From Microvirga ossetica (GTDB lineage Bacteria > Pseudomonadota > Alphaproteobacteria > Rhizobiales > Beijerinckiaceae): DNA of 64,000 nucleotides. The notes under the pieces are model-generated. The model made no database searches. It worked only from the letters and a program-made list of their open reading frames with translations, and was not told the origin of the DNA. The position numbers and the translations under genes are program-made. The stretch is from contig NZ_CP016616.1 in assembly GCF_002741015.1 (NCBI RefSeq), forward strand, positions 5,606,501-5,670,500. Direction: 5' to 3'. The stretch's first letter is position 1; the number at the start of each line of letters is the position of its first letter. Shown here piece by piece: positions 14,712 through 32,392 of this stretch.

Positions 14712-17700
14712 TCACGCGATAGTCGCCACCTGCTCCCCGGTCTCCGCATTCATCGCTTGAACGCCGATAACCACACCACGGACGGGCATGTGGACGAAGC
14801 ATCCGATGCAGCGCTTCCTGCCACCGATCGCGGTCTCCACGGCCTTGGCGTACTTCCCGAGCTGCGGCGCATGCTTCCGGGCGTGGCCATCCCACTTGTC
14901 GGGTCTTCCCGGAAAGCTCTTGTGGTCGAAGACGACGAACCAATCCTCGTCGTCGGGACCCTCGACGAGGAGGTCGATCCGGCCAGAGATCACCTGAAGC
15001 CCGTCGTAGGCATGGACGGGAACCTCACGCATCACCTTGCCCGTCGGGAACCGCTCGTCGAGATGCTTCCAGAAGCGGTCTGCCGCAGCGATCACCTCCT
15101 CCGGGAGGACACCCGTGACACCCCATCGGGCGAGGATGGTCTTCGCGGTCTCGATCCGCGCCTTCATATCCCGTCCGCGGTCGTCCACGGCGAAGATGGC
15201 GTGCATGGCCGACCCGAGATCATCCATTTCCGGATTGCCGGAGATCGGGATCTCGCCGTACAGATTCGCATGCGTGAAGGTATACGTGCCTTCATCGGAG
15301 GCCACATCGCTGGGACGGATCCTCAGCGGATCGTGCACGGCCATCGTTCGCGGAAGGGCGATGAACGGTGCCTCCGGCGATACGTCGACCGGCTCGCCCT
15401 CAACCCACGACACGAACCTGACGGCATGGTACTTCCCGTTCGCCACGAGAGGGCGGCCGGAAGCGGTCGGCAGGATCACGTGAGGCGTCACGGGGTCAGC
15501 CGCGAGGCGGTCGAGCCAGTCCACGTTGCCCTTGCCTGCGGTGCAGAGCACCACGTGGTCCCGCGCGCGGGTCACGCCGACGTAGAGCAGCCGGACGGCT
15601 TCCTCATCGGCCTCCTTGATTGCCTTGCGTCCCGTCTCCGAGTTGCGCCAACGGACGTCGATGTCCACACCGTCCTTGTTCAGTCCGAACGGGTAGGGCC
15701 AGAACCGGATCCAACGGTTCTCCATCGGCTTCTGCCAGTCCACCTCGCCGTCGACGGCCGTGGTCGGCATGAGGACGGGCCACGTCTTCGGCTCCGAATC
15801 GAGGTCCGTACAGATCACGATCGACCACTCGAGACCCTTTGACTTGTGGTAGGTGAGCACGTTCACCGAGTTCCGGTCGCGCGACCGGGGACGGGTCGCC
15901 ATGTCGTCCTCGATGGCCGTCGCCAGTCCGGACAGGGTCGCGGGCGCCCCCGTGTTGCGGCACGTTTCCTCGTACTTGCGGGCCAGACCCCTCATCTTCT
16001 CGAGGCAGTCGAGCCTGTCGGTGGTGTTCCCCCAACGGCAGGAATGCCCTGCCACCCCGGCGGCGACGAGCACCTCGTCGAGGATCTCGCTCGGCGTGAG
16101 CTGCAACTGGCGCTTCCTGATCTGCCTCAGATCGGAAGCGAACGGAACGAGCTTCTCAAGTTCGTCGTCTCCTTCCGCGAGAACGGAATAGAGCCACGCG
16201 GTCGGCTCCTCCGTTCCGCCCAGAAGGCGGGCGATCCCGGCGAGCGCGAGCTGGTTGGTGTGATCGGCAGTCCACCGGAGCGCGGCAAGGGCAAGCTCGA
16301 CCTCCTCCGCCTGGAACAATCCCCTCTGCTCCGCCGCGACGCGGATTCCGGCATCGGCCAGGGCCGAAGCCACGCGGTATACGTCAGCGTTGTCACGGCA
16401 CAGGACGGCGATGTCGCCGGGCACGAGAGGCCTGGACAGGTTCGGGCCGGCACCTACTGGCCAGGGTGCCCGGTTCGCCAGCATGTCGGCAACCGCAACA
16501 GCCAGCGCCCCCGCCTGGTTCTTGGGATAGCGCCCCTCGAAATGCCAGACCGAGAGAGGAGTATCGACCGCCGGGTCCGCCTTCCGCCGCACCTTCTCGT
16601 AGCTGCTTTCCTTTTCGGGGAGTCCCATTCGCACGAAGGCGGGAACGAACATGTCGTTGACGAGGCTGACGATGCCCGGCCGGCTGCGGAACGACTCCGC
16701 CAGGACGCCGGGCTTGCCGCCGGTCTCAGCCGCGATCCCGAGGGAGGCGTTGAGGGTGAGGGTGGTGTCCGTCGCGCGGAAGCCGTAGATGGCCTGCTTC
16801 GGATCGCCGACCCAACGGCTCTTCGGTGCGATGCGGGCCAGCTCGAGGAACAGCGCCACCTGGATCGGGCTCGAGTCCTGCACCTCGTCGATGTAGACGC
16901 TTCCGATGCGCTCGCGCAGCCTGTCCTCGAACTCCTGACGGCGGAGAATCTCGAGGGCCAGGCAGAGTTGGTCTGAGAAGTCGATGAGTCCGTGCTCGCG
17001 CTTGTAGGCCTCGTAGGCCGTCATCACGTCGGCCGCGCATGCGAATACGGCCTCGATGTAGGCCTCCATGTCCGCCCTGAGGCGAGGATGGCGCGCGGCG
17101 ACTGAAGCGGCCCTCAGCACGTCGGCGAAGACCATGACCTCATCGGCCTTCTTGCCGACCTTCAGCTTCATGGCCCTTCCCCAGTCCGGCCAGCTCAGGG
17201 ATTCTCCCCGCGACAGCTTACCGTTCAGCCTTTCAATTTCCTCCAAGGACTTCGCGCCCATGCTCGCGGTCAGCGCCACCCCATCGGCCCGCCTGATCGC
17301 CTCGCCGATGGCATCGCGAAGGTCGCCGTCCCACGTCGACGGGTTCTCGGCGTCTGACGGTACGGGCATGAACTCGGCCAGCCCCTCGATCGACTTCCGG
17401 GCGGACACCTTCAGGTCGGCCGCGGCGATGCCGTTCTCGTCCGCCTTCTCGACGATGCAAGCCACGTGCTTGCGCCAGTCGCCCTTCTCCTTGAGTTCTC
17501 CGAGTGCGAGCGCCTCCCACAGTCCGAGGATCTTCGGCGCATGCCTCGCAAACACCGGGTCGGCCGCGAGCTGGAGCAGTTCGTCCCTCTCCTCGGCCGG
17601 GATGACCTGGTTCGTGGGCGACCGACCCAGATCGATCGCGAACTCGCTCACGATCCTGCCGCAGACGCCGTTGATGGTGCCGATCATCGCGCTCAGGAGC

Positions 17701-17903
17701 CTTACGGCTTCCGGGCCGCGGCCTTCATCCACGAGGCGCGCACGGGCCCGCTCGATCAGCTCGTCGGCTGCCTTGACCGTGAAAGTGGTCGCGAGAATCC
17801 GCTCAGGCTCGACGGTCTTGATGTCCTCACCGATGAGGCTCACCAGTTCCGTGGTCTTGCCCGTTCCTGCCGATGCGATGGTCGTGTCGACGCGCCCTGT
17901 CAT
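14712..17903 (-). CDS. AddA-like UvrD/RecB helicase-nuclease
   Basis: A 1,063-residue superfamily 1 helicase fused to a nuclease. Motifs in order: Walker A (ASAGTGKTTEL, residues about 10-17); DExx box (YIDEVQDSSP, about 338); motif III (GDPKQAIYGFR, about 367); a TYHKSKGLEW motif; motif VI (LYVGVTRARDHV, about 780); and a C-terminal PD-(D/E)XK module (GRIDLLVEG then VFDHKSFPG, about 975-990). It should unwind and degrade DNA with the AddB-like partner immediately upstream. ATG 17903 follows GAGGAA and starts 11 bases after the partner's stop; the long open frame further upstream overlaps that partner and is a shadow. In this position it is probably a defence nuclease rather than the housekeeping AddA. 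Confidence 0.85.
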   Translation of the reverse strand: MTGRVDTTIASAGTGKTTELVSLIGEDIKTVEPERILATTFTVKAADELIERARARLVDEGRGPEAVRLLSAMIGTINGVCGRIVSEFAIDLGRSPTNQVIPAEERDELLQLAADPVFARHAPKILGLWEALALGELKEKGDWRKHVACIVEKADENGIAAADLKVSARKSIEGLAEFMPVPSDAENPSTWDGDLRDAIGEAIRRADGVALTASMGAKSLEEIERLNGKLSRGESLSWPDWGRAMKLKVGKKADEVMVFADVLRAASVAARHPRLRADMEAYIEAVFACAADVMTAYEAYKREHGLIDFSDQLCLALEILRRQEFEDRLRERIGSVYIDEVQDSSPIQVALFLELARIAPKSRWVGDPKQAIYGFRATDTTLTLNASLGIAAETGGKPGVLAESFRSRPGIVSLVNDMFVPAFVRMGLPEKESSYEKVRRKADPAVDTPLSVWHFEGRYPKNQAGALAVAVADMLANRAPWPVGAGPNLSRPLVPGDIAVLCRDNADVYRVASALADAGIRVAAEQRGLFQAEEVELALAALRWTADHTNQLALAGIARLLGGTEEPTAWLYSVLAEGDDELEKLVPFASDLRQIRKRQLQLTPSEILDEVLVAAGVAGHSCRWGNTTDRLDCLEKMRGLARKYEETCRNTGAPATLSGLATAIEDDMATRPRSRDRNSVNVLTYHKSKGLEWSIVICTDLDSEPKTWPVLMPTTAVDGEVDWQKPMENRWIRFWPYPFGLNKDGVDIDVRWRNSETGRKAIKEADEEAVRLLYVGVTRARDHVVLCTAGKGNVDWLDRLAADPVTPHVILPTASGRPLVANGKYHAVRFVSWVEGEPVDVSPEAPFIALPRTMAVHDPLRIRPSDVASDEGTYTFTHANLYGEIPISGNPEMDDLGSAMHAIFAVDDRGRDMKARIETAKTILARWGVTGVLPEEVIAAADRFWKHLDERFPTGKVMREVPVHAYDGLQVISGRIDLLVEGPDDEDWFVVFDHKSFPGRPDKWDGHARKHAPQLGKYAKAVETAIGGRKRCIGCFVHMPVRGVVIGVQAMNAETGEQVATIA

Positions 17904-17914
17904 GAAACGGTTCC

Positions 17915-20590
17915 TCAATTGGCTTGTTGGATTCGGCAGAGACTGCCGTACTCGCAGTACTCGCAGGGGGTCTTCGGCGGGACCATGACGAGACCGGGAG
18001 GCAATGGGGCGCCCTTGATCCCAGAGGCCGCTGCCGTTCCCGACGCCGCCAAGTCGCTCCAGGACCGATGCATGCCGACGACGGCATCCCAAGTATCCTT
18101 GAGGTTCCTGTCCGCCTTCACGGGATCCTTCGCGAGAGGCGACGCCTGCTCGGCCAGCATCGATCCCTGAGCGAGCATGAAGTACGCGGCCGGCAGGGAC
18201 TTGCCCGGCTCCACGGCGTGTCCGTAAGTGGAGATCTGCACGGCACGGCCTTTCTTGACCTCGTCCCGGCGCCGCTTGTCCCGTCTCGACCACTTGAGGT
18301 CGATGACTCCCGTCTCGTGCACGGGATGGCGGACGCGAAGATCGGTGTAGCCCTTCACCTTCAGTCCGTTGCCGAAGTCGTGCGTGACTTCCATCTCGGT
18401 CCCGACGATCTCCCATCCGTCCGTCGTCAGGAGTTCCGCGAGTGTACCCAGGGCACGTGGTATGCGCTCCCTTGCGAATGCGAGGTCGCCAGCGCCGCCA
18501 GGCTTGAGGAGAGGCGCGGCGATCTGCTGGACCACCCGATCGAAAATCTGCTCCGCAAGTTTCTTCGCCTGCGATCCAGACGCAACCGGGCCCGGCACGA
18601 ACACCTCTTGGGCGATCGCGTGGGCGATGTTGCCGAACAGGCGGTTCGCATCCGGTATGCTGCGGATCCGCCCCGCGCCCAAGTCTGCCACGTGCGAGAG
18701 AAGCCACTTGAGGTGGCAGGTCGCAAGCGTCTCCAGCGAGGTCGGGCTTTCGACCTTCTCCGCAAGGATGTCGGCAATGGCGGGGAGTGGCCACGACTCG
18801 CGCGCCTCGGGAAGGCTTTTCGCAACGTCCTGGCGACGGGTGATGGTCCTGGCCGCAACGGGGATCGTCTCCCGCTCATGGACATCCTCCGCCCTGATCG
18901 TGATCCGCTCCCTCTTTCCGCCTTCCTCGAAAAGGGGTGCCAACAGATGCGAGAAGGGATGGCTCCCGGCTTCGGTGCCTGCGATCACGGCTGGCCGCAC
19001 CAACAGGATGCCGTGGCTCGCCGCCAGTGCGGCGTTGCTCCAGTAGGCGGTCATGCGCCGGGCCGCATTCGACGGCTTCTCCGGGCAGCAGCCTGCGGAC
19101 TCCAAGGCTTCGAGTTCGACCCGGTACCATGGGAACGGAGGGGAGGCGGGTTCATGGCCCGCGAAGTTCCACCAGACGACCCGCCGGACCGGGCCGCAGA
19201 TCGCTCCCGGGTGGCTGACGGCACGGAGGTGTGATGCCTCCGGCTTGTGGGCCGGGTTGCCCAGCCCTTCGGCGATGGCCGAGTCGATCATCTGCTCGAT
19301 CTGGCGACGGGAAACCGGAGTCTCGTCGAGCTTGGTCAGGGCCTCTGACAGCGCCTTCGCCGCGCCGACGACGCACATCAGGAGCGGATCCCGCTCGGCA
19401 CCTGCCATCGTGTTCGCCCACGTCCGAACGCGGTCCGTGATGCCCTTGGCATCGATCGCAGGCATCGTGTGCTCGAACCGGGCCACGTCGGACCAAGCCC
19501 GAAGCTCCCCGAGGAGCTTCGTCGCCTTCCGCTTGTCATCCTCGGTCTCGGCTAGAACCCACTTCTCGATGTTCTCCCACGCACGCTTCCATTCCGGCCC
19601 GTCGATTCCTGGCTGTCTCGAGACGGCCCGTGCCAGGAATTGTCCGGGCGCCCATCTCACGGGCGGGTTAGGAAGGGTGAGAAGGTCGAGAAACCGCTCC
19701 GCATCGAACGGCTTCCAGACGGTCGCGAACGCAAGCGTCAGGACCTGCAAGGCGCCGCGGAAGGGAGATGCGGCCGAGACCCCGAGGACGGGTTGACCTA
19801 GCCTTGCAAGGGCGAGGTCGAGCAGCGCCGTGCTGCCCGTCTGGGCAATGACGAGCGTCTTGCCGACCCCGGCTTCGGTATCGGACGCGATCCATTCCGC
19901 GACGGACTCGGCCGCCGATAGCTCGGTCGATGCCTCCATCTCGACGACGGTGTCGTCTCCGTCGAGCTCTGCCCGCGTTCCCTGCTTGAGGAAGACGTGG
20001 AGACGACCGAGGTCCGACGATGCCTCCACCGGAGCCTGGACCACCTTCTGGCGCACGTCGGTTCCGCCAGCCGACAAAAGTTCGGTCAGCCTGAGCCATC
20101 CCGGCGGCAGCTCGTCGGAAGCCTCCACCGTCTCCAGCCTGTCGATCCCCGCCTTGTCCCCGGCCTCGAGCCGGGCGATCACCGCCCGGAGGCGGTCCGC
20201 ACGACCGGACGGCATCGGACTGCCGGCAGCCTCGGCGGCGGCAAGGTCGGAAAGCCGGGCAGGGGCGTTGGCGAGGACTCCCGGCCTCCATCCGCCTTCG
20301 ACGAGAGCATCGCGCCAGGACAGGATGAGACGGGCCGTGGAGAAGGGGTCGGCGGCCAGCGACGCGGCCCAGAACCGCTTCCCGGTCTTGCCCGCTTCTT
20401 GCAGCTTCTTCTGCCACGCAGTGATTCGCACCACGGGGGTCACGGGAGGACCGCCCAGACCCAGCTTGGTCTCGAGGATTTCCAGGAAGCCGAGCGGGCC
20501 GACGATGCAGCCGTTGAGGCACCCGGGACCGTCCCCCGGGAAGTCAGGGTAGGCGAATCCATCCGCCACCATGCCGAAGACGATGTGCAT
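17915..20590 (-). CDS. AddB-like PD-(D/E)XK nuclease with Fe-S cluster cysteines
   Basis: An 891-residue partner of the AddA-like helicase. The C-terminal nuclease shows GYTDLRVRHP and GVIDLKWSRR (catalytic Asp and DXK, near residues 745-765). A first cysteine in LATCHLKW (about 625) and three more in PCEYCEYGSLC (about 877-886) match the cysteine staple that holds an Fe-S cluster in AddB and Cas4-type nucleases. The helicase-like N-terminal part has no intact Walker A motif that I can see. Start chosen at ATG 20590 (MHIVFGMVADG), which resembles the beginning of AddB proteins; the upstream frame extension is low-complexity. Confidence 0.75.
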   Translation of the reverse strand: MHIVFGMVADGFAYPDFPGDGPGCLNGCIVGPLGFLEILETKLGLGGPPVTPVVRITAWQKKLQEAGKTGKRFWAASLAADPFSTARLILSWRDALVEGGWRPGVLANAPARLSDLAAAEAAGSPMPSGRADRLRAVIARLEAGDKAGIDRLETVEASDELPPGWLRLTELLSAGGTDVRQKVVQAPVEASSDLGRLHVFLKQGTRAELDGDDTVVEMEASTELSAAESVAEWIASDTEAGVGKTLVIAQTGSTALLDLALARLGQPVLGVSAASPFRGALQVLTLAFATVWKPFDAERFLDLLTLPNPPVRWAPGQFLARAVSRQPGIDGPEWKRAWENIEKWVLAETEDDKRKATKLLGELRAWSDVARFEHTMPAIDAKGITDRVRTWANTMAGAERDPLLMCVVGAAKALSEALTKLDETPVSRRQIEQMIDSAIAEGLGNPAHKPEASHLRAVSHPGAICGPVRRVVWWNFAGHEPASPPFPWYRVELEALESAGCCPEKPSNAARRMTAYWSNAALAASHGILLVRPAVIAGTEAGSHPFSHLLAPLFEEGGKRERITIRAEDVHERETIPVAARTITRRQDVAKSLPEARESWPLPAIADILAEKVESPTSLETLATCHLKWLLSHVADLGAGRIRSIPDANRLFGNIAHAIAQEVFVPGPVASGSQAKKLAEQIFDRVVQQIAAPLLKPGGAGDLAFARERIPRALGTLAELLTTDGWEIVGTEMEVTHDFGNGLKVKGYTDLRVRHPVHETGVIDLKWSRRDKRRRDEVKKGRAVQISTYGHAVEPGKSLPAAYFMLAQGSMLAEQASPLAKDPVKADRNLKDTWDAVVGMHRSWSDLAASGTAAASGIKGAPLPPGLVMVPPKTPCEYCEYGSLCRIQQAN

Positions 20591-21526: not shown

Positions 21527-21805
21527 CTATGGCCTCCTCTTGCTCCGCGAGCGCCGAGGCACGCGCGGATGATTGGGCGGAATTCGGAAACCAGGACCGA
21601 GCCCGCCTTCCTCCTTTAGGAAGACGACGCCCCGCGCTTCAAGCGCCTGCCTAATGGCCTTGTGGGTACGTATCGTCATGTCCTCCCGACCGAGTTCAAA
21701 CCTCATCAGGGAGCGAGTGCTGATTCCTGCGGCTTCGGCCAACTCGTCCTGCGTCAGCCCAAGCGTCAGGCGAGCGGCTCTCAGAAGGTCGGGAAAAAGT
21801 TCCAT
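21527..21805 (-). CDS. Xre-family helix-turn-helix regulator
   Basis: A 92-residue single-domain regulator. The helix-turn-helix (LGLTQDELAEAAGISTRSLM, residues about 15-34) is of the lambda Cro/C1 (Xre) type. The tail after FRIPPNHPRV is basic. ATG 21805 (MELFPDLLRAARL) is preferred over 21820, since family members begin about 12 residues before the helix-turn-helix. It diverges from the AAA+/RWYRLG operon, and the space between holds TTGTCA half-sites. It probably controls that operon and itself. Confidence 0.8.
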   Translation of the reverse strand: MELFPDLLRAARLTLGLTQDELAEAAGISTRSLMRFELGREDMTIRTHKAIRQALEARGVVFLKEEGGLGPGFRIPPNHPRVPRRSRSKRRP

Positions 21806-21841
21806 GGCGCGAATTTGCACGCACGCGCTAGGAATACCAGC

Positions 21842-21900
21842 TTGTCAACAATTGCGTAGCTACATGACAATATTATCATTCGATGTGCATTTTTTTGTCA
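21842..21900. promoter_or_regulatory. Candidate operator and promoter between the Xre gene and the AAA+ operon
   Basis: TTGTCA at 21842-21847 and its inverse TGACAA at 21865-21870 form a dyad, and TTGTCA recurs at 21895-21900. The stretch is unusually AT-rich for this genome, as expected for promoters. Inference: binding sites of the adjacent Xre regulator. Confidence 0.4.
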
Positions 21901-21991
21901 CTTTACCGTTCATTGCGATGGATCCGAGCCTTGGGTCGGGTTAACCTTCAGCGAATCAGGAGGTCTTTCCACGTCGGAGCGGGAGGACAAG

Positions 21992-22402
21992 ATGGACGTG
22001 CTGGCACTTGGAGGTTCAAAAGGAGGTGGATCGCGAAACACCTCAAGCGTCCTGCTCGAGGCTGGGGCACGCGAGATGGAACTTCACCCTCTCCGTATAC
22101 GGGTTCTCCCTCCTGGGCGGGCGCCAGCCCTGAGGAACGTCCGGAAAGTGCCGTTCAACACGGCTTCGATCTTGGCGGATGACGCAGAACTCGTCCCCGC
22201 TCAAACCCGGCTCCTCGTCCTGAGAAGCCCCGAATGCTTCCCCGTCATCGTCGACATGCTCTGCAAAAGGATTCGCACGACCATGCTCATGCTGGCCGGC
22301 ACCAAGGCTCGAATCCTGCTGCCGATCCGGGACAGAGGCGGCAAGTTTGCAAATCGCCCTCGAGCAGGTCTGACGAGCGCACATCCCACGTGTGACGGAT
22401 GA
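21992..22402 (+). CDS. Hypothetical protein, first gene of the AAA+/RWYRLG operon
   Basis: A 136-residue protein with a strong Shine-Dalgarno (GGGAGGACAAG) before ATG 21992. It begins MDVLALGGSKGGGSRNTSS, faintly like a ParA P-loop, but the lysine-Ser/Thr pair required for nucleotide binding is missing. The middle (PLRIRVLPPGRAPALRNV, then VPFNTASILADDAELVP) has no family I recognise. It is followed about 45 bases later by the first RWYRLG protein. It could be a decayed or very divergent ATPase, or something new. Confidence 0.45.
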   Translation: MDVLALGGSKGGGSRNTSSVLLEAGAREMELHPLRIRVLPPGRAPALRNVRKVPFNTASILADDAELVPAQTRLLVLRSPECFPVIVDMLCKRIRTTMLMLAGTKARILLPIRDRGGKFANRPRAGLTSAHPTCDG

Positions 22403-22448
22403 AGATCGCTCCGCGTCCAGAACAACCCTGTCGAATAGGAGACTTCGA

Positions 22449-22778
22449 ATGTTCGAAATCGAGGGCAATGAATTCACTGACACTGATCAAATGCTACTGA
22501 CAGCCGATCGTCTCGAGCGTCTCGCCACGAACCTGAGGGCGATCCACGCAGGCGCCGGTCCGACCGAGGACGATCTCGCCAACGCCCCAGTCATTGAAAA
22601 CTGGGCTACGGAATACTTACCCGCAAAAGTCTTGTTCGGGCGTGTGGCGAGCAACCTGCCAGGGAAGTATCTCGGCTTCTGTTCAACGGATCTTTGGGTC
22701 CTAGCCGAGCCACGTGGCTGGGCACTGACGCTTGAGCGCTGGTACCGCCTCGGGTCACCGGAGAGGCGCCAAGATTAA
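22449..22778 (+). CDS. RWYRLG-motif small protein 1
   Basis: A 109-residue acidic protein, start ATG 22449 after AGGAGAC. It has an N-terminal helical half (LTADRLERLATNLRAIHAGA, then GPTEDDLANAPVIENW) and a C-terminal half (FGRVASNLPGKYLGF, then TDLWVLAEPRGWALTLERWY and RLGSP). The second half recurs in the products at 22,946 and 24,937, so this is the complete form of a family that I do not recognise. No membrane segment or catalytic motif is seen. Its place beside an AAA+ ATPase suggests a small partner or adaptor (inference). Confidence 0.6.
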   Translation: MFEIEGNEFTDTDQMLLTADRLERLATNLRAIHAGAGPTEDDLANAPVIENWATEYLPAKVLFGRVASNLPGKYLGFCSTDLWVLAEPRGWALTLERWYRLGSPERRQD

Positions 22779-22797
22779 CACGCGAAAGGTAGGACGG

Positions 22798-22935
22798 ATG
22801 CGCCCGCTTCGCAGGGAGCCACTCATCTCCGCGTACGAGGCCCTGTTCTATCTTCTCGATGAGTCAACCCACTGCACGGCTGCGCCGTCAGCCGACCCGC
22901 ACATCTTTGTCGGCAGACGCCGCTTCAGAGCATAG
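22798..22935 (+). CDS. Possible 45-residue peptide in the AAA+ operon
   Basis: Starts MRPLRREPLISAYEALFYLL at ATG 22798 with GGTAGGACG just before it, and stops 10 bases before the next gene's ATG. No family recognised. Its spacing and Shine-Dalgarno fit an operon member, but it is short enough to be chance. Confidence 0.35.
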   Translation: MRPLRREPLISAYEALFYLLDESTHCTAAPSADPHIFVGRRRFRA

Positions 22936-22945
22936 GAGGGACTTG

Positions 22946-23209
22946 ATGTTCGTAATCCTCAAGGATCGGATCCTGGGCCGAGACAACGTTGCCCGACTGA
23001 TCGACGGCCTCGAACACCTTAGCGCGGTTCTCCGAGCAATTCAGGATGGGCGTGGACCCACTGCCCAGGAGTTGGCTGAGGCTCCTATCCTCAACAATTG
23101 GAGCATCGAGATCAAATCCACGCCATGCCTGAGCATCACGGCCGACTTGACTGACGATCTGTTCCTTCCAAAGGACGAAACCCTCAGGGAGATGCCGGAT
23201 CTTCGCTGA
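22946..23209 (+). CDS. RWYRLG-motif small protein 2, apparently frameshifted
   Basis: Start ATG 22946 after a strong AGGAGGG. The N-terminal half (NVARLIDGLEHLSAVLRAIQ, then GRGPTAQELAEAPILNNW) aligns with protein 1. The annotated frame stops at 23209 with LREMPDLR. The next frame, from about 23,185 to 23,285, encodes RIFAEQQGWVRGLAGWYRLG and SPLG, the expected family ending. So one base has been gained or lost near 23,180-23,200, or the ribosome shifts frame there. It sits directly before the AAA+ ATPase gene. Confidence 0.6.
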   Translation: MFVILKDRILGRDNVARLIDGLEHLSAVLRAIQDGRGPTAQELAEAPILNNWSIEIKSTPCLSITADLTDDLFLPKDETLREMPDLR

Positions 23210-23300
23210 ACAGCAAGGTTGGGTAAGGGGCCTCGCGGGCTGGTACCGCCTCGGAAGTCCGCTGGGCCTTATCAGCACGTCGTGATCAGCAGGATTTCCT

Positions 23301-24905
23301 ATGCCAGCAGACATGCCACCCCAAGATCCTGGCCGCAGTCAAGATCGCGATCGAAAGCATTTTGAGCGGAGGCGGAAAGCCGCCTTGGCAGGCCTTCACC
23401 TGCCGACGGAACAAGAACTCCTCGAGGGAATGCCGTTCCTTGCTGGCGACATCCGGCAGGACATGCAGGCTTTTGCCGAGCGGTTGATGCCCAGGCTCCG
23501 AAAGAAGGCGGAGCGCATCCACTTCGCCGCGGTCGTCAACTGCTTGGAGCAACTCACCGTCAGTCCCGGCGTCGAAGAGCTCAGAGCGCTCAAGGGCGTC
23601 CTTGAGGAGGCTACAGCCAGTCTTCCAGACAGTGTCCGGTCCTGGCGACTGCGGTGCCGGATCTATCTCGCATACCTTGGTGATCATCGCGCCGCGTTCG
23701 CACTCGCCCGCGATGCCATCCTGATGGCCATTGCGATGCAGTCGTACTCAAAGGAGCCGGTGACGGCCCTTGCAATGATGAAGGCCGCACTAGGCTGGCT
23801 CTTCTTCGCAACATCTGATCCTGAGTACGCCTATCTCGGGCGGGAGATCCGGACAGCATGCCGGGCCGAGCCAGCGATCATGGTTGACCACTATGGGGGA
23901 TTGCTCGTCGAGTTTGTGGAACACCAGACTCAGGAGGCACTGCTCGCCGCAATCGCTGACGAGGAGACCGCAAACGGAAGGCTGCCGGCGAGCGAAACCG
24001 CGAACACCCCGAGCGTCTCAACCCCGACGGGGTACCCGGGATCTGCCGTAGTGTCCTCAGTGGTCATTTTCAGCCAAGTCGGCAACGCGAATACGGGGGA
24101 AGGGAAGAAGGTCGCGAAGGAACTCGACGGGCTCGCCGGCAAGGCCTTGCCCCTGGTTCCAGTACCTGACCTCAAGGCGGCACGCGCAATGTTGAAAGCG
24201 GAGTTCCCGTATGCGACGGAAGTAATCGATACCGTCCTCTGGGACGTCGCGCTCCGATCCCATGTCCAGATCCGCCCGACCATCCTTGTGGGCACTCCGG
24301 GATGCGGCAAGTCCCGGTTCGCGACCCGCCTCCTGAAGGTTCTCAATCTGCCTCACGACATGATTCCATGCGGTGGGGTTTCGGATGGCGCCTTCGCTGG
24401 CACTCCCCGTCGATGGTCGACCGGCGAACCGTCCCTCCCGGTTGCCCTCATCACCCGCTACAAGGCGGCAGGACCCGGTGCGATCTTGGACGAGATCGAG
24501 AAGGTCGGGACCTCCCGCCACAACGGTCAGGCTCATGACGCACTTCTCGCATTCCTGGAGCGGGAGACGGCGTCCCGCTTTCACGATCCTTATGTACAGG
24601 CGCCGTGTGACCTTTCCCATGTCACATGGCTGATGACAGCCAACTCTCTCGAGGGACTTTCGGCCCCGCTTCGGGACCGCTGCCGGGTCATTCCGTTTCC
24701 AGAGGCCGGACAGGATCATCTCGCAGTCCTCAGCCGTCAGATCCTCGCGGAACTCCTTGCTGATCAAGGATTGGATCATCGCTGGATCAGCCCGCTCGAC
24801 GAGATCGAACTGGAAGCCGTCACCAAAGTATGGCCGGGTGGTTCACTGCGCAAATTGCGAAGGGTAATCGAGGTCATTCTGGCGAGTAGGGGCGTGAGGC
24901 ACTGA
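23301..24905 (+). CDS. Lon-like AAA+ ATPase without protease domain, with a novel N-terminal domain
   Basis: A 534-residue protein. Residues about 25-220 form a helical domain (LPTEQELLEGMPFLAGDIRQ start; later RLRCRIYLAYLGDHRA and KAALGWLFFAT) shared with the two downstream proteins. Residues about 300-520 are an AAA+ module resembling Lon: Walker A GTPGCGKS (about 331), Walker B AILDEIEKV (about 393), sensor 1 WLMTANSLEGLS (about 442), Arg finger region APLRDRCR. There is no Lon Ser-Lys protease domain. It probably uses ATP to remodel or load partner proteins. Central gene of the operon; no named system recognised. Confidence 0.75.
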   Translation: MPADMPPQDPGRSQDRDRKHFERRRKAALAGLHLPTEQELLEGMPFLAGDIRQDMQAFAERLMPRLRKKAERIHFAAVVNCLEQLTVSPGVEELRALKGVLEEATASLPDSVRSWRLRCRIYLAYLGDHRAAFALARDAILMAIAMQSYSKEPVTALAMMKAALGWLFFATSDPEYAYLGREIRTACRAEPAIMVDHYGGLLVEFVEHQTQEALLAAIADEETANGRLPASETANTPSVSTPTGYPGSAVVSSVVIFSQVGNANTGEGKKVAKELDGLAGKALPLVPVPDLKAARAMLKAEFPYATEVIDTVLWDVALRSHVQIRPTILVGTPGCGKSRFATRLLKVLNLPHDMIPCGGVSDGAFAGTPRRWSTGEPSLPVALITRYKAAGPGAILDEIEKVGTSRHNGQAHDALLAFLERETASRFHDPYVQAPCDLSHVTWLMTANSLEGLSAPLRDRCRVIPFPEAGQDHLAVLSRQILAELLADQGLDHRWISPLDEIELEAVTKVWPGGSLRKLRRVIEVILASRGVRH

Positions 24906-24936
24906 CCTCAGTTATGACGCGCATTGGGAGGACGAG

Positions 24937-25164
24937 ATGTATGGCCCAGTCACAGGTTTCTGGAGCACGGTGGAAATCCCGATGACCTGCCTGATCGGCG
25001 CAGCCTCGGGGCATCCCCTGCTCCCAGGAACTGGGCGCGTGATCCGCACGTCCGACCTCTGGATCATGTCTGAGGAGTTTTCATGTGCTCGCACGCTATC
25101 GCGTTGGTATCGCCTCGGCCGACCTTACGAGGCGATCGACGAAGATCAGACCTCGGTGTCGTGA
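24937..25164 (+). CDS. RWYRLG-motif small protein 3 (short form)
   Basis: A 75-residue protein, ATG 24937 after GGGAGGACGAG. It lacks the N-terminal helical half but keeps the C-terminal family pattern: IPMTCLIGAASGHPLLPG, then TSDLWIMSEEFSCARTLSRW and YRLGRP. Its stop lies 11 bases before the next start. A family copy just before this shared-domain gene, as in front of the ATPase, suggests each small protein is paired with a larger partner (inference). Confidence 0.6.
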   Translation: MYGPVTGFWSTVEIPMTCLIGAASGHPLLPGTGRVIRTSDLWIMSEEFSCARTLSRWYRLGRPYEAIDEDQTSVS

Positions 25165-25175
25165 AGGAAGGCTCC

Positions 25176-26261
25176 ATGAGCGGCAAACGCCACAAGGATA
25201 TTCGGGCGGGACGGGGGTTCCCGAGCGCTGCCGAACTGGAAGCCGGGTTTCCTTTCCACAAGGACAGCATCCGCGAGGACATGAGCATCTGGGTGGAATC
25301 CAAGGTGCGGCAAAAGCCGGAGGAGCAGGACTCAGGCTGGGACCGCTCAAGATACCTGGTCGCTCTCCGATGGTTGCGGGACAGCGCGAGGGACAGCCTC
25401 AAGACCGACGAGGACTTGGCCGAACTTGTCCTCCAGGTGATCGAAACCCTGCCGCCTTGGGCGCCGGCCGATCACCTCCGTTGCTGGGCGTATTGGAGTC
25501 AACTCACGGCACAGCCGCCGATGGGTGAGGAACACCGGCGGACTCTCGGAGCATCGGCTGATGTGAATGCTGGCAAGCTTCCTGGTGGTCAAGCCGCACG
25601 CGTGGGAGCCGATAGCCTCGACCGACACCCGATTTCCATCATGCCACAAGCGAATGATCATCCGGGGCGCATGAAGGACATTCTCGCCGGGAAGGCATGG
25701 CCCGAAGCCATCGAACTTTTGCGTGGAATGCCGTTCTTCAAGGGTAGCCTCCACGAGGACATGCGCCACTACGCCGGACGCTTGTTAGGCGGCATCGAAC
25801 GCGACGTGTACAGACGCGATGATTGGGACGACTACGAAGCGTCTATCATCCATCAGGCTCGGCGCTTGCGGAAGGCAGCAAGCAACGAAGCGTCAACCCA
25901 GTGGGATTTCCGTCCAATTATTGAACGTCTGCTGTTCACGTTCCCCAGGGACTATCGCGAGGGGTGGCTTCGGTGCAGCTACTACCGGGCGGCTCTCGGG
26001 GTGAGATGGGCGCAGGTCGACATGGCGAGCACGGCAGTCTCACTGGCCCTGGTTTCAGCCAAGGCCGGATCTCCATCGGAATCCGACTATCAACTGATCG
26101 CCACGGCGCTGGGCTGGCTCGCCGAGCTGGCGGTAGATGAGCTCGCGCTGGTGGAGCAACCGAAACCCATCTGTTGCGACGCGCCGGAAGATACCGCAAG
26201 ACACTACGGGCAGATGCTTGTCGATTTCATGCGTATGCCTCCGACGAGGAGTGGTCCATGA
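25176..26261 (+). CDS. Protein with two copies of the shared operon domain
   Basis: A 361-residue protein, ATG 25176 after GAAGGAAGG. Residues about 10-120 are a shortened first copy (FPSAAELEAGFPFHKDSIRE onward, with DHLRCWAYWSQL). Residues about 165-355 are a full second copy (WPEAIELLRGMPFFKGSLHE, then EGWLRCSYYRAALGVRW, TALGWLAELA and HYGQMLVDFM). No catalytic motif visible; probably an all-helical scaffold or adaptor. The stop overlaps the next start as ATGA, so the two are translationally coupled. Confidence 0.65.
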   Translation: MSGKRHKDIRAGRGFPSAAELEAGFPFHKDSIREDMSIWVESKVRQKPEEQDSGWDRSRYLVALRWLRDSARDSLKTDEDLAELVLQVIETLPPWAPADHLRCWAYWSQLTAQPPMGEEHRRTLGASADVNAGKLPGGQAARVGADSLDRHPISIMPQANDHPGRMKDILAGKAWPEAIELLRGMPFFKGSLHEDMRHYAGRLLGGIERDVYRRDDWDDYEASIIHQARRLRKAASNEASTQWDFRPIIERLLFTFPRDYREGWLRCSYYRAALGVRWAQVDMASTAVSLALVSAKAGSPSESDYQLIATALGWLAELAVDELALVEQPKPICCDAPEDTARHYGQMLVDFMRMPPTRSGP

Positions 26262-27277
26262 CAGACCGAATGGCTGAAATCCGTGCCTACAACACCCGCC
26301 AGGGCCACATTCTAGCCGGACGGGCGATCCCGTCTGCCGACGAACTGCTGCGCCTCATGCCCTTCTTTGAGGACAGCATCCGTGAGGACGTCCTTGAGTG
26401 GGTCAAGGGCGAGATCGCCCGCCTTGAGCGGCTCAACCCACCTGAGCGCCGGGCGCTCCTCCCATTTCAGGGGCTGCTCAACAACTTGGAAGACTCCGAT
26501 GTTGTCGGTGCAAAGCTGGCCCAGCGCATTGACATGCTGATGCTCGCACTGGCCGAAGAAGATCGTGAGGGGCGGCTGCGGTGCACGGTCTACCAGGCAG
26601 CCCTCGGGCAGCGTGCGAGTATGATCACGCTCGCATGCAATGCGGCAACAGCCCTCGCAGCGTCCGCCGAGACGTCACCAGAGCCGACACTGGTGGATCT
26701 CACGCTCGCTTGGGCAGCGCTCGGCTGGCTCGCCGCGCTAGCCACCGATGACGCATTCGTGCCGCTGTCAGACCATCCTCGGCCGGAGCGTTTTGAGTCA
26801 TCCGTCGACACTGCCCTGTGGCACGGCCGGGCGATCGTAAGGTTCCTGAGCGGAGAAGCGCCACCGAAGGTGCTGCTGCGGCAGAGGTACCGCGATAATG
26901 CAACTCAGCATTGTGATGCCGCCGAGCGCAAGCAGTGGCTGATCCGACAGGCTGGCGGCGTGTTGGAAGAGGATTTCGTGGCTGACTGGCTCGGCATGAG
27001 CCTTCCAGAGTTGCGGCGGTATACGGAAGGGGGCGACCTGATCGCCGTCGACATGGACGGCCGTGCGGTCTACCCGGCGTTTCAGTTGAAGAACCCGACG
27101 ACAGTCTTGGACGTGCGCAAGATCCTCTCCGTCATGCCGATCAGGTCTTCCTGGATGCGACTGGAATGGTTCCTGACACCAGCCAGCGTGCTGGGCGGAG
27201 ACACCCCTTGGCAAGCCCTGCGTGCGGGGTGGCGGGAGGCTGTTCTTGATCTCGCGAGGAGCCATGGTGCGGAATGA
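26258..27277 (+). CDS. Shared-domain protein fused to a MbcA/ParS-like domain
   Basis: A 339-residue protein, last of the operon. Residues about 15-200 are the shared domain (IPSADELLRLMPFFEDSIRE, then GRLRCTVYQAALGQ and AWAALGWLAALA). The C-terminal 115 residues read EEDFVADWLGMSLPELRRYT, AVYPAFQLKN, then RLEWFLTPASVLGGDTPWQA and LRAG. This is the layout of DUF2384/MbcA-ParS toxin-binding antitoxin-like proteins, with a preceding helix-turn-helix-like part. No RES toxin follows. The fusion suggests the domain recognises a partner or DNA within this system. ATG 26258 overlaps the upstream stop. Confidence 0.7.
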   Translation: MTDRMAEIRAYNTRQGHILAGRAIPSADELLRLMPFFEDSIREDVLEWVKGEIARLERLNPPERRALLPFQGLLNNLEDSDVVGAKLAQRIDMLMLALAEEDREGRLRCTVYQAALGQRASMITLACNAATALAASAETSPEPTLVDLTLAWAALGWLAALATDDAFVPLSDHPRPERFESSVDTALWHGRAIVRFLSGEAPPKVLLRQRYRDNATQHCDAAERKQWLIRQAGGVLEEDFVADWLGMSLPELRRYTEGGDLIAVDMDGRAVYPAFQLKNPTTVLDVRKILSVMPIRSSWMRLEWFLTPASVLGGDTPWQALRAGWREAVLDLARSHGAE

Positions 27278-27456: not shown

Positions 27457-27630
27457 ATGACGCGCATCCTGATCGCCGACGATCACGACGTGGTCCGCTC
27501 CGGCGTCCGGGCCATCCTGGAGGGACATGAGGGCTGGGAGGTGGTCGGCGAGGCCCGGGACGGCAAGGAAGCCATCGACCGGGCCCTGGCCACCCCGCCC
27601 GACGTCGTGGTCCTCGACTATGCCTTGCCG
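27457..27630 (+). pseudogene. Response regulator (NarL/LuxR type), 3'-truncated
   Basis: Starts MTRILIADDHDVVRSGVRAI with a good Shine-Dalgarno (GGAGGAAG) and keeps the receiver domain to the phospho-acceptor region (PDVVVLDYALP). After residue 58 the sequence stops resembling a receiver and enters the antisense of another gene. The rest of the receiver and the whole DNA-binding domain are missing. Such genes are usually chromosomal in this order, so this may be a transported or rearranged fragment. Confidence 0.75.
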
Positions 27631-27972
27631 GAGTTTGGCGATAGCTTGCTCACCCCAAAGCTCCACCGCCTTGCGAGCCAAATCGGTTCCCAAACCATTC
27701 CGATTTAAGAATGCGATTGCTTCGGTGATCGCCTTCTGGTTTCCCCATGCATCGTGGACGATCTCAGCCTGTGATTGAGGCAATACTTCCGAAAGACGGT
27801 CGACTCGGCCCTCGTCGAGAATTCCATAGATATCTTCGCCGAACGTCTCCCACATTCTCCGTGCCGTTACTGGTCCGCTACCTGCAAATTCAGGACGCCC
27901 TGCGAGAACCCGAACGATGTGGCGGCCGTTTGAATGTCCTAGGCCAGGCAGGCGATCGAAGTCGACGCTCAT
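27625..27972 (-). pseudogene. RecD2-like helicase, N-terminal fragment
   Basis: Starts at ATG 27972 (MSVDFDRLPGLGHSNGRHIV) and contains the helix-hairpin-helix region typical of RecD2-type proteins: GPVTARRMWETFGEDIYGIL, AWGNQKAITEAIAFL and ARKAVELWGEQAIAKL. After about 115 residues it hits the junction with the response-regulator fragment. The helicase core is absent from the window. It is oriented toward that fragment, so one rearrangement removed the 3' ends of both. Confidence 0.65.
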
Positions 27973-28365: not shown

Positions 28366-28799
28366 CAGCGGTTATCTGAACGATCGATAGGTCGAAGGGG
28401 GGTATCGAGAAACTTCTCGTCGAGGTTCCGCGAACTGGCGTTGACTGCCCAGCGGACGAACTTCTCCAATAATAAATCGCGGATAGCTTCCAACTCCGCA
28501 ACTTTCCGCTCAAGCCTTCGGATCTTCGTTTGCGTCCGACTCAGAGGCTTGTCGTCTCCGGACAGGATCGGTGCCTTATTGTAATTCTCATAAGCTGCCT
28601 TGATCTCGGTATAATTGTCCAACGCCTGCCGCGTATATCGCCCACCGATCTCACGGTCGACGACATCGCATAGGGCTTCCCATGTCAGTCGTCCCTTCCA
28701 GCCATCAATTATGGCGACAATGCCCACAATGCGGTCCTGCGTCATGCGTGGTGCGCGGGGCCGCCGATTCCGTTGCTTGGTACGAACTTTCTTAGGCAT
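28365..28799 (-). CDS. TnpC-like DNA-binding/coiled-coil protein of the recombinase cassette
   Basis: A 144-residue basic protein. The N-terminus is rich in Lys/Arg (MPKKVRTKQRNRRPRAPRM). The middle (LTWEALCDVVDREIGGRYTR) suggests a DNA-binding helix-turn-helix, and the end (KIRRLERKVAELEAIRDLLL) is a coiled coil. This resembles the small third protein (TnpC) of Tn554-type elements. ATG 28799 overlaps the upstream recombinase stop by 8 bases; a longer start inside that gene is less likely. Confidence 0.6.
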   Translation of the reverse strand: MPKKVRTKQRNRRPRAPRMTQDRIVGIVAIIDGWKGRLTWEALCDVVDREIGGRYTRQALDNYTEIKAAYENYNKAPILSGDDKPLSRTQTKIRRLERKVAELEAIRDLLLEKFVRWAVNASSRNLDEKFLDTPLRPIDRSDNR

Positions 28800-30846
28800 C
28801 GGATCCAGGCAATCCATCAGGTGCCTCGCTGCGGTGATTATGTAGTAGCACTGCACCTGTCACCGCTTCATGATCACGCATAGCTTGCTCAATCAACGAG
28901 TACTGACCGGACCGGGACAATCGGATCAGTGTCCCATCGGGCACTGAGGGATTCAGCAGAATCGCAAGCAATTGCTCCAAACGGTCAATGGTCCCACGGT
29001 GAGCTCGTACCCACTCTTCAGCACCAAAATACTCCTTCGCCATAGCAGCCTCAGCTTCAGCAAGGCTTCGACGGGCACTTTCCAGAGCGAGGCTCACCCT
29101 CTTTGTATGCTGAGGGTCATGTCCTTTTACACACACATGTTTGGTGCAGTGTAAGCACTCCATAAACATGCTACAGGGTGAGGATGCGAAATCATGCTCA
29201 CAGAAGCCGATTTCGGTCGCATGTCCATGAGTTGCGCGCTTCTGTCCATCCTCCCTAGATACGGGCGGGTTAACTCTGATCCTCTGGCCTCGGACATTAG
29301 CTAGTTCCTTTTCCCGCCGCCGCCCTTGCTCTAATCTTTCTTCCGGCGTCCGGTGATCGTAGACGGTGTTCTGTCGAACATCGGCGCGCCCGCTCCATGC
29401 TGCTATTTCCGCCTCCGATAGGCCACCTCGTTGAGCAAGCGTGTTGAGATAATGCCGCAGTTGGTGGGTTTTCAACGTGATTGGATCATCGGGATTTGAC
29501 AGGCCGAGACGCGCGAAGATCCCGTCAGCCGTATGAAATTGCTTCATGATATTGTCATAGGACACAGCATCGAACATACAGCGCCATCGAGCCTGTCTCC
29601 GAGACCCGAACTCACGACGCCTCACAATCATCAACGCTTCGCTGTAACGGAGCCCAGTCGCTTTATCCATCAGTGGAAATCCCCGCGGCAGCAGAGAAAG
29701 AATAGCCGTCTCGATGTCAGCGAACTTAAATCCGCGGGAAGTTCGTCCGTTAGCACCTCGGACGAGTGCCGTTGCGCGAATGCCCTGCCGCTGGGCCCAC
29801 AACTGGCCCTCTTTCGGTCTGGTGAAGCCAATGATCTGCTCAATGTCGGCTCCGGTAAGTATTTTCCCGCGCAGTCCGGCACAGTCTTCAGGCAGATAAA
29901 GTTGATCAGGATACCTCTCGTACCAACCGGCGATTCGTCGGGCCTCGTCCGTCTGATCTCTCAAACGGCATATAGCCTCCTTTGCTACATCCGCCATAAC
30001 GGCGGGAATGCCCTTGATGAAGTCTGGATAGCCTTTTGATCCCGCCCAACGTAGCATATATCCCTGCTCACCTTCTGAAAGCGGCTGTACCTCGCAATCC
30101 GCTGCAAGCGCGAAAATTTCGTTTACACGACTGGGCGCACAGGAGAGCAGCGCCATCACGGACGTGGAAATGATATCTTGAGGGGATTTGGCGAGTTGGA
30201 AGGCCGTCGGTAGTGCGCGGAGGGCCCGATCGGAGGGGAGTTTCTTTTCGCGTATAGCCTTTGCCGCCTCGCCAAGTCTCCGCTTCTTCGCAACCTGCCA
30301 TTTAAGGCCATGTTTCCAATCAACTGGTGCATTGGCGGCAAGATGCTTCTCGTGAAGAAAGGTCGAAAGGTATCTGAGATGCAGCCCGACACGCGGTCCA
30401 TAATCCCCGGGAACCCGAGTATCGGCAAGATCGACAGCTTGGTCGAGCAATTGAGCATTGATGGCGCCGAGATCTGGTTTCAATCCGCTCTTTAGGAAGG
30501 CCCAATACAATTCCCGCATTGCTCTAATCTCCATTAACGGCGGAGACGTTGGTGCCTTTATGCCCACGTAGTAACGGATGTAAGCCTTGACCTGCGATGC
30601 GAACGGTTCCTTCACAGGAGAGCCAGGAAGCGTTTTTTGCTTCCGCGCTTCCTCGACAAAATTGAGAAGCATCCGTCCTTTGAAGCCTCTCTTGAAATAA
30701 AACTTGGTTACATCCCAAGTCGGCGCGTCGAAGTCAAGATCAGAGCCGTATACATCGAGGTCATGGCGGCACATGCGAACAAACGCTTCCATATTCGCCG
30801 CGGCGGTTAGAGTTGCTTTTGGTATGAACGGGATTAATTCAGCCAA
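28792..30846 (-). CDS. Tyrosine recombinase 3 of a multi-recombinase cassette
   Basis: About 684 residues from a TTG that overlaps the upstream stop by 8 bases; the longer open frame upstream is a shadow. The catalytic domain shows TLKTHQLRHYLNTLAQRGG, AAWSGRADVRQ and the Tyr nucleophile in NTVYDHRT. The C-terminus has a cysteine/histidine cluster (GFCEHDFASSPCSMFMEC, then CTKHVCVKG) that probably binds zinc. Such long third recombinases occur in Tn554-like and related trio elements. It acts on the island ends with the other two recombinases (inference). Confidence 0.75.
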   Translation of the reverse strand: MAELIPFIPKATLTAAANMEAFVRMCRHDLDVYGSDLDFDAPTWDVTKFYFKRGFKGRMLLNFVEEARKQKTLPGSPVKEPFASQVKAYIRYYVGIKAPTSPPLMEIRAMRELYWAFLKSGLKPDLGAINAQLLDQAVDLADTRVPGDYGPRVGLHLRYLSTFLHEKHLAANAPVDWKHGLKWQVAKKRRLGEAAKAIREKKLPSDRALRALPTAFQLAKSPQDIISTSVMALLSCAPSRVNEIFALAADCEVQPLSEGEQGYMLRWAGSKGYPDFIKGIPAVMADVAKEAICRLRDQTDEARRIAGWYERYPDQLYLPEDCAGLRGKILTGADIEQIIGFTRPKEGQLWAQRQGIRATALVRGANGRTSRGFKFADIETAILSLLPRGFPLMDKATGLRYSEALMIVRRREFGSRRQARWRCMFDAVSYDNIMKQFHTADGIFARLGLSNPDDPITLKTHQLRHYLNTLAQRGGLSEAEIAAWSGRADVRQNTVYDHRTPEERLEQGRRREKELANVRGQRIRVNPPVSREDGQKRATHGHATEIGFCEHDFASSPCSMFMECLHCTKHVCVKGHDPQHTKRVSLALESARRSLAEAEAAMAKEYFGAEEWVRAHRGTIDRLEQLLAILLNPSVPDGTLIRLSRSGQYSLIEQAMRDHEAVTGAVLLHNHRSEAPDGLPGSDA

Positions 30847-32392
30847 CGGATTGCTCCTGGAATGGTAAGCCTTTGGCGAGACATTGTCGTACGACCTCTG
30901 CACAGGCCACGATCGTATCATCGAGAGTTGCAGCGACGATCGGAGAGCCATCCTCAGCCATCCTCCGTCGTCGAGCGAGCAGGCCCTCAAGGATGGCCTC
31001 GTGGGGACCGTCGAGCCAGGGATGGAATAGTCGGCAAGTATAACAGGCAACTGGTTTACCGAGGCCGCAGAAGCCGTGCTTTCCGCATCCGCCTATGTCT
31101 ACTGGTCCTTCGCCTTCATGTGAGGCGCCGAACACGTGGTGTTGGATTTCTTGATTCGAATCGTTGCCGCGGGTTGCCAATTTCCCGGCGAAGCGTTGAG
31201 CCATCGGCGCGAGCAACATGGCCAATTTCCTGTCGATGCTTTGAAGTAAGTCGACGCAATACTCGATGTAGCTCTTGGCTGCGTTTAAGGACGAGTGGTC
31301 GAGAATGGCAGCGATCTCCTCAAAGGAACGACCTGCTTGTGCGGCTCTCGTACCTGTGGTCCTACGGGCTCGCGTTGCATGAACGTTGATGGGCTCGCCT
31401 GTTCTCTCGGACTTCACTCCTAGCCCTTCCATTACGTATACGATCCGCTGACTGATGGTAGCGCTAGTCGGTTGTGCCAGCACAGTACCATCGCCGATGA
31501 ACGTGCTTGCAGCATGGGATGCGGGGAACATAGGCGCCTGCTCCGGGTCACTCATTCCGCAAGCATAAGCTTTCACACGCACGAGCCGCACTTGGGCTTC
31601 GAGTATGATGCCTACGTCTTCAATCAGTGGGCGCTCGGTAAACAATTTGCGATATCCAGCACCGCGTTGCTTTGCGCGAGGTATGGCAATGACATAGCTC
31701 TTCCCGGAAGCCGTGCTGCTTATTTTCAGGTCGCAGATCCGCAAACTCGCAAGCTGGATCGGACGGGCTCCAATGGCGCCGGAAAGGAGACATAGGCTGT
31801 AATTATCTAAGGAGATTGTGCCTTCAGCAAAGCCCTGATGTAGAGCCTTGTACAAGCCATCATACTCAAGGTTTGAATACGCTCCGTTGACCGGACACTT
31901 CAATCGAAGCGCCCGCCTTCTCGGCTTGACGTGTCTCGGCATTTCATTCGCTGTGATCAGAGCATCCCGCGAGATTCCTGGAATTCCAAGCCTTGCCCAT
32001 GCTCGCACGGCATCGTTTGCGTCGGTCGAACAGTGAAGATGTGTCTGTTCTAGTGATGCTCGATAATTGACTAGATGGATGCCTCTAATCGACTTAGCAT
32101 CCTTATCTGTGTCAACGAGGATCTTCAAAATATGTCGAAGGTACCGATAAGAGGCAGCAGCAGTACCGGGACTTGCGCTGCGAAGCCTTGACATGATGAA
32201 TCTCTTGAAGGAGCGCTTGAGACCCTCGTCTATCGGCAGGTCACCGTAATGAAAGTGCAGCCGTCCCGTGTCAGTAACGACTTCCCAGTCGTCTTCGCGA
32301 GGATTGAACGTGTATCCATCGCGCGTTTCAGCATGTTCGGGAAGTTCGTAATCTGCGTTGCGAGGGTTCGCGCTTGGGATTCTAGCTCGCAC
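30839..32392 (-). CDS. Tyrosine recombinase 2 of the cassette
   Basis: A 517-residue integrase. The Arg of box I is in GARPIQLASLR. The box II pattern is NVHATRARRTTGTRAAQAG, followed by LDHSSLNAAKSYIEY with the probable nucleophile Tyr. A cysteine/histidine group near the C-terminus (GGCGKHGFCGLGKPVACYTC) suggests zinc binding. GTG 32392 overlaps the first recombinase stop by 11 bases. Confidence 0.8.
   Translation of the reverse strand: MRARIPSANPRNADYELPEHAETRDGYTFNPREDDWEVVTDTGRLHFHYGDLPIDEGLKRSFKRFIMSRLRSASPGTAAASYRYLRHILKILVDTDKDAKSIRGIHLVNYRASLEQTHLHCSTDANDAVRAWARLGIPGISRDALITANEMPRHVKPRRRALRLKCPVNGAYSNLEYDGLYKALHQGFAEGTISLDNYSLCLLSGAIGARPIQLASLRICDLKISSTASGKSYVIAIPRAKQRGAGYRKLFTERPLIEDVGIILEAQVRLVRVKAYACGMSDPEQAPMFPASHAASTFIGDGTVLAQPTSATISQRIVYVMEGLGVKSERTGEPINVHATRARRTTGTRAAQAGRSFEEIAAILDHSSLNAAKSYIEYCVDLLQSIDRKLAMLLAPMAQRFAGKLATRGNDSNQEIQHHVFGASHEGEGPVDIGGCGKHGFCGLGKPVACYTCRLFHPWLDGPHEAILEGLLARRRRMAEDGSPIVAATLDDTIVACAEVVRQCLAKGLPFQEQSVG

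Follow-up and report, generated by a model that had tools for sequence, protein, structure and literature searches.

A conserved AAA+ ATPase and DUF6634 gene module in Microvirga ossetica and its possible role in defence

The cassette and its closest described systems

Three described systems resemble in part a seven-gene cassette (xre, S1, S2, AAA, S3, B and C) in a 64,000-nucleotide stretch of the Microvirga ossetica genome, hereafter the window: Lon protease (endopeptidase La), IetAS, which comprises an AAA+ protein plus a serine protease, and the Xre/MbcA/ParS-RES toxin-antitoxin systems. The cassette encodes an Xre-type regulator, a Lon-type AAA+ ATPase, three small proteins of the Pfam family DUF6634 (PF20339) and the proteins B and C. 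It is well supported that the cassette belongs to a conserved, mobile module. The preferred reading, to which a probability of about 45% is given, is that of a mobile AAA+ unfolding ring with DUF6634 partners, Xre-controlled in this lineage and most likely acting against invaders.

The window ATPase has the AAA+ fold and motifs in common with Lon. Walker A (G331, G334, G336 and K337), Walker B (D397 and E398), N448 and W372 are invariant in all 78 aligned ATPase sequences. However, the protein ends directly past the AAA+ module, neither a protease family nor the Lon N-terminal domain was matched in Pfam at E ≤ 1, and a helical N-terminal domain (ND) is present instead. It scores 80.3 against Lon, for which the curated whole-protein cut-off is 608. 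An ordinary Lon protease is ruled out by the absence of the protease domain, in agreement with an earlier note, made from the DNA letters alone, that described a protease-less Lon-like ATPase. IetAS is similar in that an AAA+ motor is tied to proteolysis, and the sole FtsH-type relative scanned scored 79 bits to IetA. The window ATPase reached just 11.9 bits (E 0.027 over 30 residues), and no serine protease family was found among the seven proteins in Pfam. The only other matches of the cassette proteins in PADLOC 2023 at E ≤ 1 were to the helix-turn-helix (HTH) domain of Xre, the best being capH at 32.3 bits.

The likeness to the Xre/MbcA/ParS-RES systems is a C-terminal domain that may be related in some homologues of C. 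The C-terminal end matches Rv2175c in 20 and MbcA/ParS in 6 (best E 0.012) of 34 aligned members, and is thus closer to Rv2175c than to MbcA/ParS. Window C has no MbcA/ParS match at E ≤ 1; the MbcA/ParS-like end claimed earlier is a possible feature of C that is matched in some homologues. In the structural model of C, a winged helix was matched locally by Foldseek to Xis and BldC (probability 1.00, E 0.75–1.1), although the model is poor and no match had an E value below 0.17. The window protein, as modeled, would carry a winged helix of Xis/BldC/Rv2175c type. RES was not matched in the seven proteins (Pfam, E ≤ 1), and an ordinary RES-Xre toxin-antitoxin system is ruled out for lack of that partner.

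Several small proteins of the RWYRLG type are present, as stated earlier; their assignment to a new family is ruled out because they belong to DUF6634, a Pfam family of unknown function. S1 and S3 exceed its curated cut-off of 27 bits (Table 1) whereas S2, which is frameshifted, remains under it at 16.8 bits. The DUF6634 profile matches S2 in two pieces that lie in different frames, and the same domain is continuous in a single frame in the related loci L011, L012, L013, L014 and L017. The best match of the DUF6634 profile to solved structures was to designed coiled coils at E 0.13. The word DUF6634 occurs in no paper found in the open-licence PubMed Central (PMC) literature, and no description of the gene set was found there, including the available part of a paper on Dnd-linked systems (PMC10853773). 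The linkage of DUF6634 to AAA+ unfoldases is what the present analysis adds for this family.

Conservation of the gene set and the wider module

The seven genes can be recognised in the same order at four other Microvirga loci (L011, L013, L014 and L017), so the homologues are not scattered. In L013 and L014, S3 can be recognised only in part; the L017 ATPase is spread over two frames, and S1 is missing from L012. Broken second copies of a Lon-type ATPase were seen downstream of C at L011:12010-12616 and L012:12351-12668. All known instances of the exact seven-gene set are in Microvirga-like sequences, and a shorter form, xre-DUF6634-AAA, occurs at other loci of the genus. The 37 C-related proteins listed include the window's own, and the named ones are all from Microvirga. 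Of the 48 genomes of the genus, counting the window's own in each case, five have C at 80% identity or more and 23 have an ATPase match at E ≤ 1e-30; for C, a sixth genome (G341) holds a 47% relative over residues 7–335. The operon as first described was thus real, conserved and of fixed order, except that one of its three small genes is frameshifted and one gene, a truncated and probably ParA-like open reading frame after xre, had been overlooked.

Profile searches located the ND of the ATPase in both B and C, as the earlier note had claimed; B has no Pfam match at E ≤ 1. DUF6634 also accompanies an ND and a C-type end with no ATPase within the stretch read at two loci, L008 and L177. The window cassette is therefore best seen as two units: xre, the ParA-like remnant, S1, S2 and AAA, followed by S3, B and C. 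At L008:6395-8304, on contig C6 of the window's genome, the DUF6634 gene precedes a fused ND-ND-C-type protein in an ATPase-free neighbourhood.

Altogether, 101 loci were read by profile and 98 were tallied after the removal of one duplicate and two loci without core genes; five of the nine loci from one search had been omitted because the same places were already present under other identifiers. Since all loci were drawn through the ATPase, DUF6634 or C (L093), overall fractions are biased. Two samples from 297 genomes of the order are fairer in this respect: 33 DUF6634 loci and 18 Lon-type loci, the latter being 18 of the 19 matches outside the window's genome (the nineteenth, at a contig end, was left out). 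A co-directional AAA+ gene lies within 3 kb at 30 of the 33 DUF6634 loci, or at 29 of the 32 drawn by DUF6634 alone once L056, drawn through the ATPase, is set aside. Twelve are Lon-type, 17 are FtsH-type and one is partial at a contig end. DUF6634 in turn is present at 15 of the 18 Lon-type loci. An HExxH motif was found in the open frame of 19 FtsH-type profile matches above 370 bits, a criterion of motif only, and the one FtsH-type protein scanned matches Peptidase_M41. Judged by sequence, the general unit is DUF6634 beside a predicted AAA+ unfoldase, either protease-less Lon-type or protease-bearing FtsH-type. The earlier reading of an undescribed system stands insofar as no named system with this set was found, but the exact set is only a locally elaborated form of a more widespread module. 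DUF6634 is rare across the class, with 6 of 385 sampled genomes including the window's own.

Across 23 non-redundant loci, ATPase distances correlate with those of the nearest DUF6634 (Mantel r 0.68, p 0.0001), as they do across 16 loci within the genus (r 0.70, p 0.0002). This co-divergence fits partner proteins, and the common descent of linked genes contributes to it too.

The order samples also reveal associated payload genes: GIY-YIG or a phosphoesterase at 16 of the 18 Lon-type loci, and GIY-YIG, phosphoesterase or a PolB-like exonuclease within 4.5 kb at 18 of the 33 DUF6634 loci. Of 71 Lon-type loci, 13 carry GIY-YIG (always upstream), 19 the phosphoesterase and another 13 the ParA-like gene or a remnant of it. 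The three families never overlap within 4.5 kb, with hypergeometric p values, which ignore kinship, of 0.011 for GIY-YIG/phosphoesterase, 0.054 for GIY-YIG/ParA and 0.011 for phosphoesterase/ParA. Two GIY-YIG genes that were scanned match the PADLOC candidate PDC-S14 (74.3 and 86.6 bits). By our own profile, such genes account for the 13 upstream occurrences, whereas the window cassette has none. At L071:8574-10207, five tandem DUF6634 genes are followed by a phosphoesterase, with no AAA+ match within the stretch read.

The ParA-like gene of the window is a truncated member of a family designated p235. Members of 230–252 residues lie between xre and the first DUF6634 gene in eight shorter Microvirga loci, and L078 has a 226-residue member beside DUF6634 with no ATPase within the stretch read. 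ParA-type deviant Walker A motifs have a lysine at a position where p235 proteins, whose start is otherwise ParA/MinD-like, have an arginine (R15, invariant in nine of nine aligned members). AAA_31 was matched in two of these nine, at best with E 0.024. MinD and Soj chains align in register over residues 3–44 (E 0.09–1.3), although ribosomal S10 chains ranked higher (E 0.02). The family is probably ParA-like, an assignment for which these scores are weak. A similar remnant is present in L011, shorter relics occur in L012 and L013, and L014 retains only a 14-bit trace.

The intergenic palindrome on the xre side is of the same type in L011, whose Xre is 97% identical to the window's, while L013 and L014 have another type in common and Xre proteins 52–53% identical to it. 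Palindrome types therefore change in step with Xre divergence, which suggests that Xre may regulate its own expression through the palindrome. Positions 21842..21901 contain one promoter-like site per strand, a weak indication because 1.2 are expected where 2 were found.

Relative to homologues, AAA, S1, B and C are under purifying selection, with ratios of nonsynonymous to synonymous substitution (dN/dS) of 0.13–0.42 (S1 0.13–0.23). The corresponding values are 0.27–0.70 for S2 before its frameshift and 0.62 for the ParA-like remnant. With the core maintained and these two genes relaxed, the copy may work without them or may be at an early stage of decay; it may in any case be partly decayed.

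Proposed function and its alternatives

The Lon-type ATPase, in which catalytic and pore residues are kept, would form a ring and thread polypeptide through its pore. Having no protease, it would remodel its client and not degrade it. DUF6634 is likely an adaptor or client of the ATPase, as linkage and co-divergence indicate. In many lineages the ring may license a nuclease or phosphoesterase encoded next to it; in the window lineage the payload place would be taken by the truncated, probably ParA-like gene plus the S3-B-C unit. B and C could join the ring through their common ND, and C could bring it to DNA via its winged-helix end.

Defence is the best single reading of what such a ring would serve, and it rests on context. 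Around 75 of the loci, 612 neighbouring non-core proteins were called, of which 130 were scanned in PADLOC at E 1e-15, alongside 130 of the 287 proteins called as controls at 20 other sites in these genomes. The neighbours matched 109 families and the controls 28, numbers that overstate protein counts in both sets since several families can match one protein. ZorA, ZorB, ZorC, PtuA, PtuB, HerA, STK_OB and BrxA are among the neighbour matches listed, nearly all with one protein each. The matches of GIY-YIG genes to PDC-S14 and the patchy distribution of the ATPase, in 23 of the 48 genomes and on 31 of 72,556 plasmid records, also speak for a mobile defence-type module.

A number of observations weigh against this reading. 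The PADLOC comparison counts families and not proteins, most of them matched by one protein in both sets, and the controls also match defence-type families: mad2 and mad3 (four proteins each), type I methyltransferase, DpdJ, BrxHI and HamB (one protein each) and SngC are among those listed. PDC-S14 is itself a candidate label in PADLOC, and the one phosphoesterase scanned matched PDC-S10 weakly at 31.6 bits. DUF6634 is absent near 3 of the 18 Lon-type loci and AAA+ near 3 of the 33 DUF6634 loci. None of the three payload families is held by 26 of the 71 Lon-type loci, and the FtsH-type locus L073 has GIY-YIG and phosphoesterase in one stretch. Xre control is not general because xre lies near only 9 of the 33 DUF6634 loci, and the ParA assignment rests on weak E values. 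The ND has no structural match, the comparison having mainly covered ATPase residues 254–534, and the C model has a predicted local distance difference test (pLDDT) score of 58.5. Finally, S2 is frameshifted and the ParA-like gene truncated in the window copy.

A more ambitious version of the defence reading, which we consider doubtful, would make DUF6634 the small adaptor of a new immune module. It would plug into two unlike AAA+ unfoldases, the protease-less Lon-type and the protease-bearing FtsH-type, and couple unfolding to interchangeable payloads: GIY-YIG, calcineurin-like phosphoesterase, PolB-like exonuclease or DNA-binding subunits composed of ND and winged HTH. Were the defence reading true, protein unfolding by a protease-less Lon-type motor would control a swappable nuclease. 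DUF6634, an unexplained family, gains a partner found with it consistently and a role that can be tested, and a mobile operon set of Alphaproteobacteria, rhizobial plasmids included, has no name in PADLOC 2023.

The cassette might instead maintain its plasmid or island, with Xre, the ParA-like protein, the remodelling AAA+ and the winged-helix binder governing replication, partition or excision of the carrier. The ATPase is indeed found on 31 of 72,556 plasmid records, with type IV secretion system genes near some plasmid copies, and the probably ParA-like gene holds the same place in the eight Microvirga loci and adjoins DUF6634 in L078; the local Xis/BldC-like winged helix in the poor model of C points the same way. 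Yet copies also reside on contigs of 3.8 to 7.2 Mb (L057, L058, L060 and L082), the window's own on one of 5.8 Mb, and a single genome (G322) has six divergent ATPase matches. Maintenance also leaves the nuclease and phosphoesterase partners unexplained, and we hold it to be unlikely. On an Acidiphilium plasmid (L009:3342-9460), a Lon-type relative is flanked by a His-Xaa-Ser radical SAM cluster on one side and an Xre-RES pair on the other; at the matching place of a sister plasmid, L010, no radical SAM gene is annotated.

Less probable again is a module of the toxin-antitoxin or addiction kind, with the ATPase or a payload as the toxin and DUF6634 or C as its antidote. It would agree with the small proteins immediately before the ATPase, with the tandem DUF6634 genes (five in L071), with the possible MbcA-like domain in C homologues and with a regulator weakly like HTH antitoxins (34.4 bits to the couple_hipB profile, cut-off 71.65). 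However, neither RES nor any other toxin domain was matched in the seven proteins (Pfam, E ≤ 1), and DUF6634 pairs with two unlike AAA+ families. Least probable, by a little, is that the window copy is a decaying remnant without present function of a family that works elsewhere: the S2 frameshift, the truncated ParA-like gene, the raised dN/dS of both, the broken ATPase copies behind C in L011 and L012, and the frame break of the L017 ATPase would fit, but AAA, S1, B and C are free of internal stops and have the low dN/dS given above, and the ParA-like gene loss is old since the gene is reduced in L011, L012 and L013 and a trace in L014.

A phage origin of the module is not supported. Matches by tblastn to phages (nine records) are confined to ATPase residues 290–526. 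A scan of viral contigs with the single ATPase protein found no loci, and one with the ATPase alignment found six, two of which (L191 and L194) also show DUF6634 by tblastn.

Gene inventory and neighbourhood of the cassette

Table 1 Features of the cassette, in window coordinates.
Feature	Position	Strand	Remarks
Xre-type HTH regulator	21527..21820	-	HTH_3 28.8 bits; ATG more likely at 21805; divergent xre in Microvirga relatives
Promoter-like region	21842..21901		Promoter-like sites in both directions; near-palindrome ATGACAATATTATCAT at 21864-21879 between them, a possible Xre operator
Truncated p235-family member, 136 residues, probably ParA-like (Arg at Walker A Lys)	21992..22402	+	Profile E 2.8e-33, family positions 1-115
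S1, DUF6634	22449..22778	+	PF20339 36.4 bits (scored on 22392-22778); open reading frame in the earlier note opened at 22392
S2, DUF6634, frameshifted before C-terminal WYRLG	22946..23209	+	Remaining domain in other frame, about 23190-23285
Lon-type AAA+ ATPase without protease	23301..24905	+	ND 23370-23915; AAA+ 24165-24890
S3, DUF6634	24937..25164	+	PF20339 31.4 bits
B, one partial and one full ND copy	25176..26261	+	ND profile matches 25185-25550 and 25668-26228
C, ND and C-terminal region with Rv2175c/MbcA-like and winged-helix signs	26258..27277	+	ND 26297-26845; C-terminal domain 26873-27274

Upstream of the cassette, window positions 562-4949 encode PprDinG (548.7 bits) and PprRE (189.4 bits) of a pPIWI-RE system; a pPIWI-RE RNaseH domain is encoded immediately to the left of the window (C1:5604202-5605131 of this genome). 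A UvrD-type helicase adjoins a PD-(D/E)XK nuclease at 14712-20590 in an AddAB-like layout. Within the genus, the helicase was found at E ≤ 1e-60 in only 3 of 48 genomes, one of them the window's own, and therefore looks like cargo rather than core. Downstream, a response-regulator gene (27457-27708) keeps the first ~58 residues of its family and then diverges; it stands beside a recombinase block and was probably cut by insertion. The block (28792-33785) consists of three large consecutive open reading frames on the minus strand that resemble tyrosine recombinases by eye, only the third of which matches Phage_integrase; the arrangement is reminiscent of recombinase-in-trio elements.

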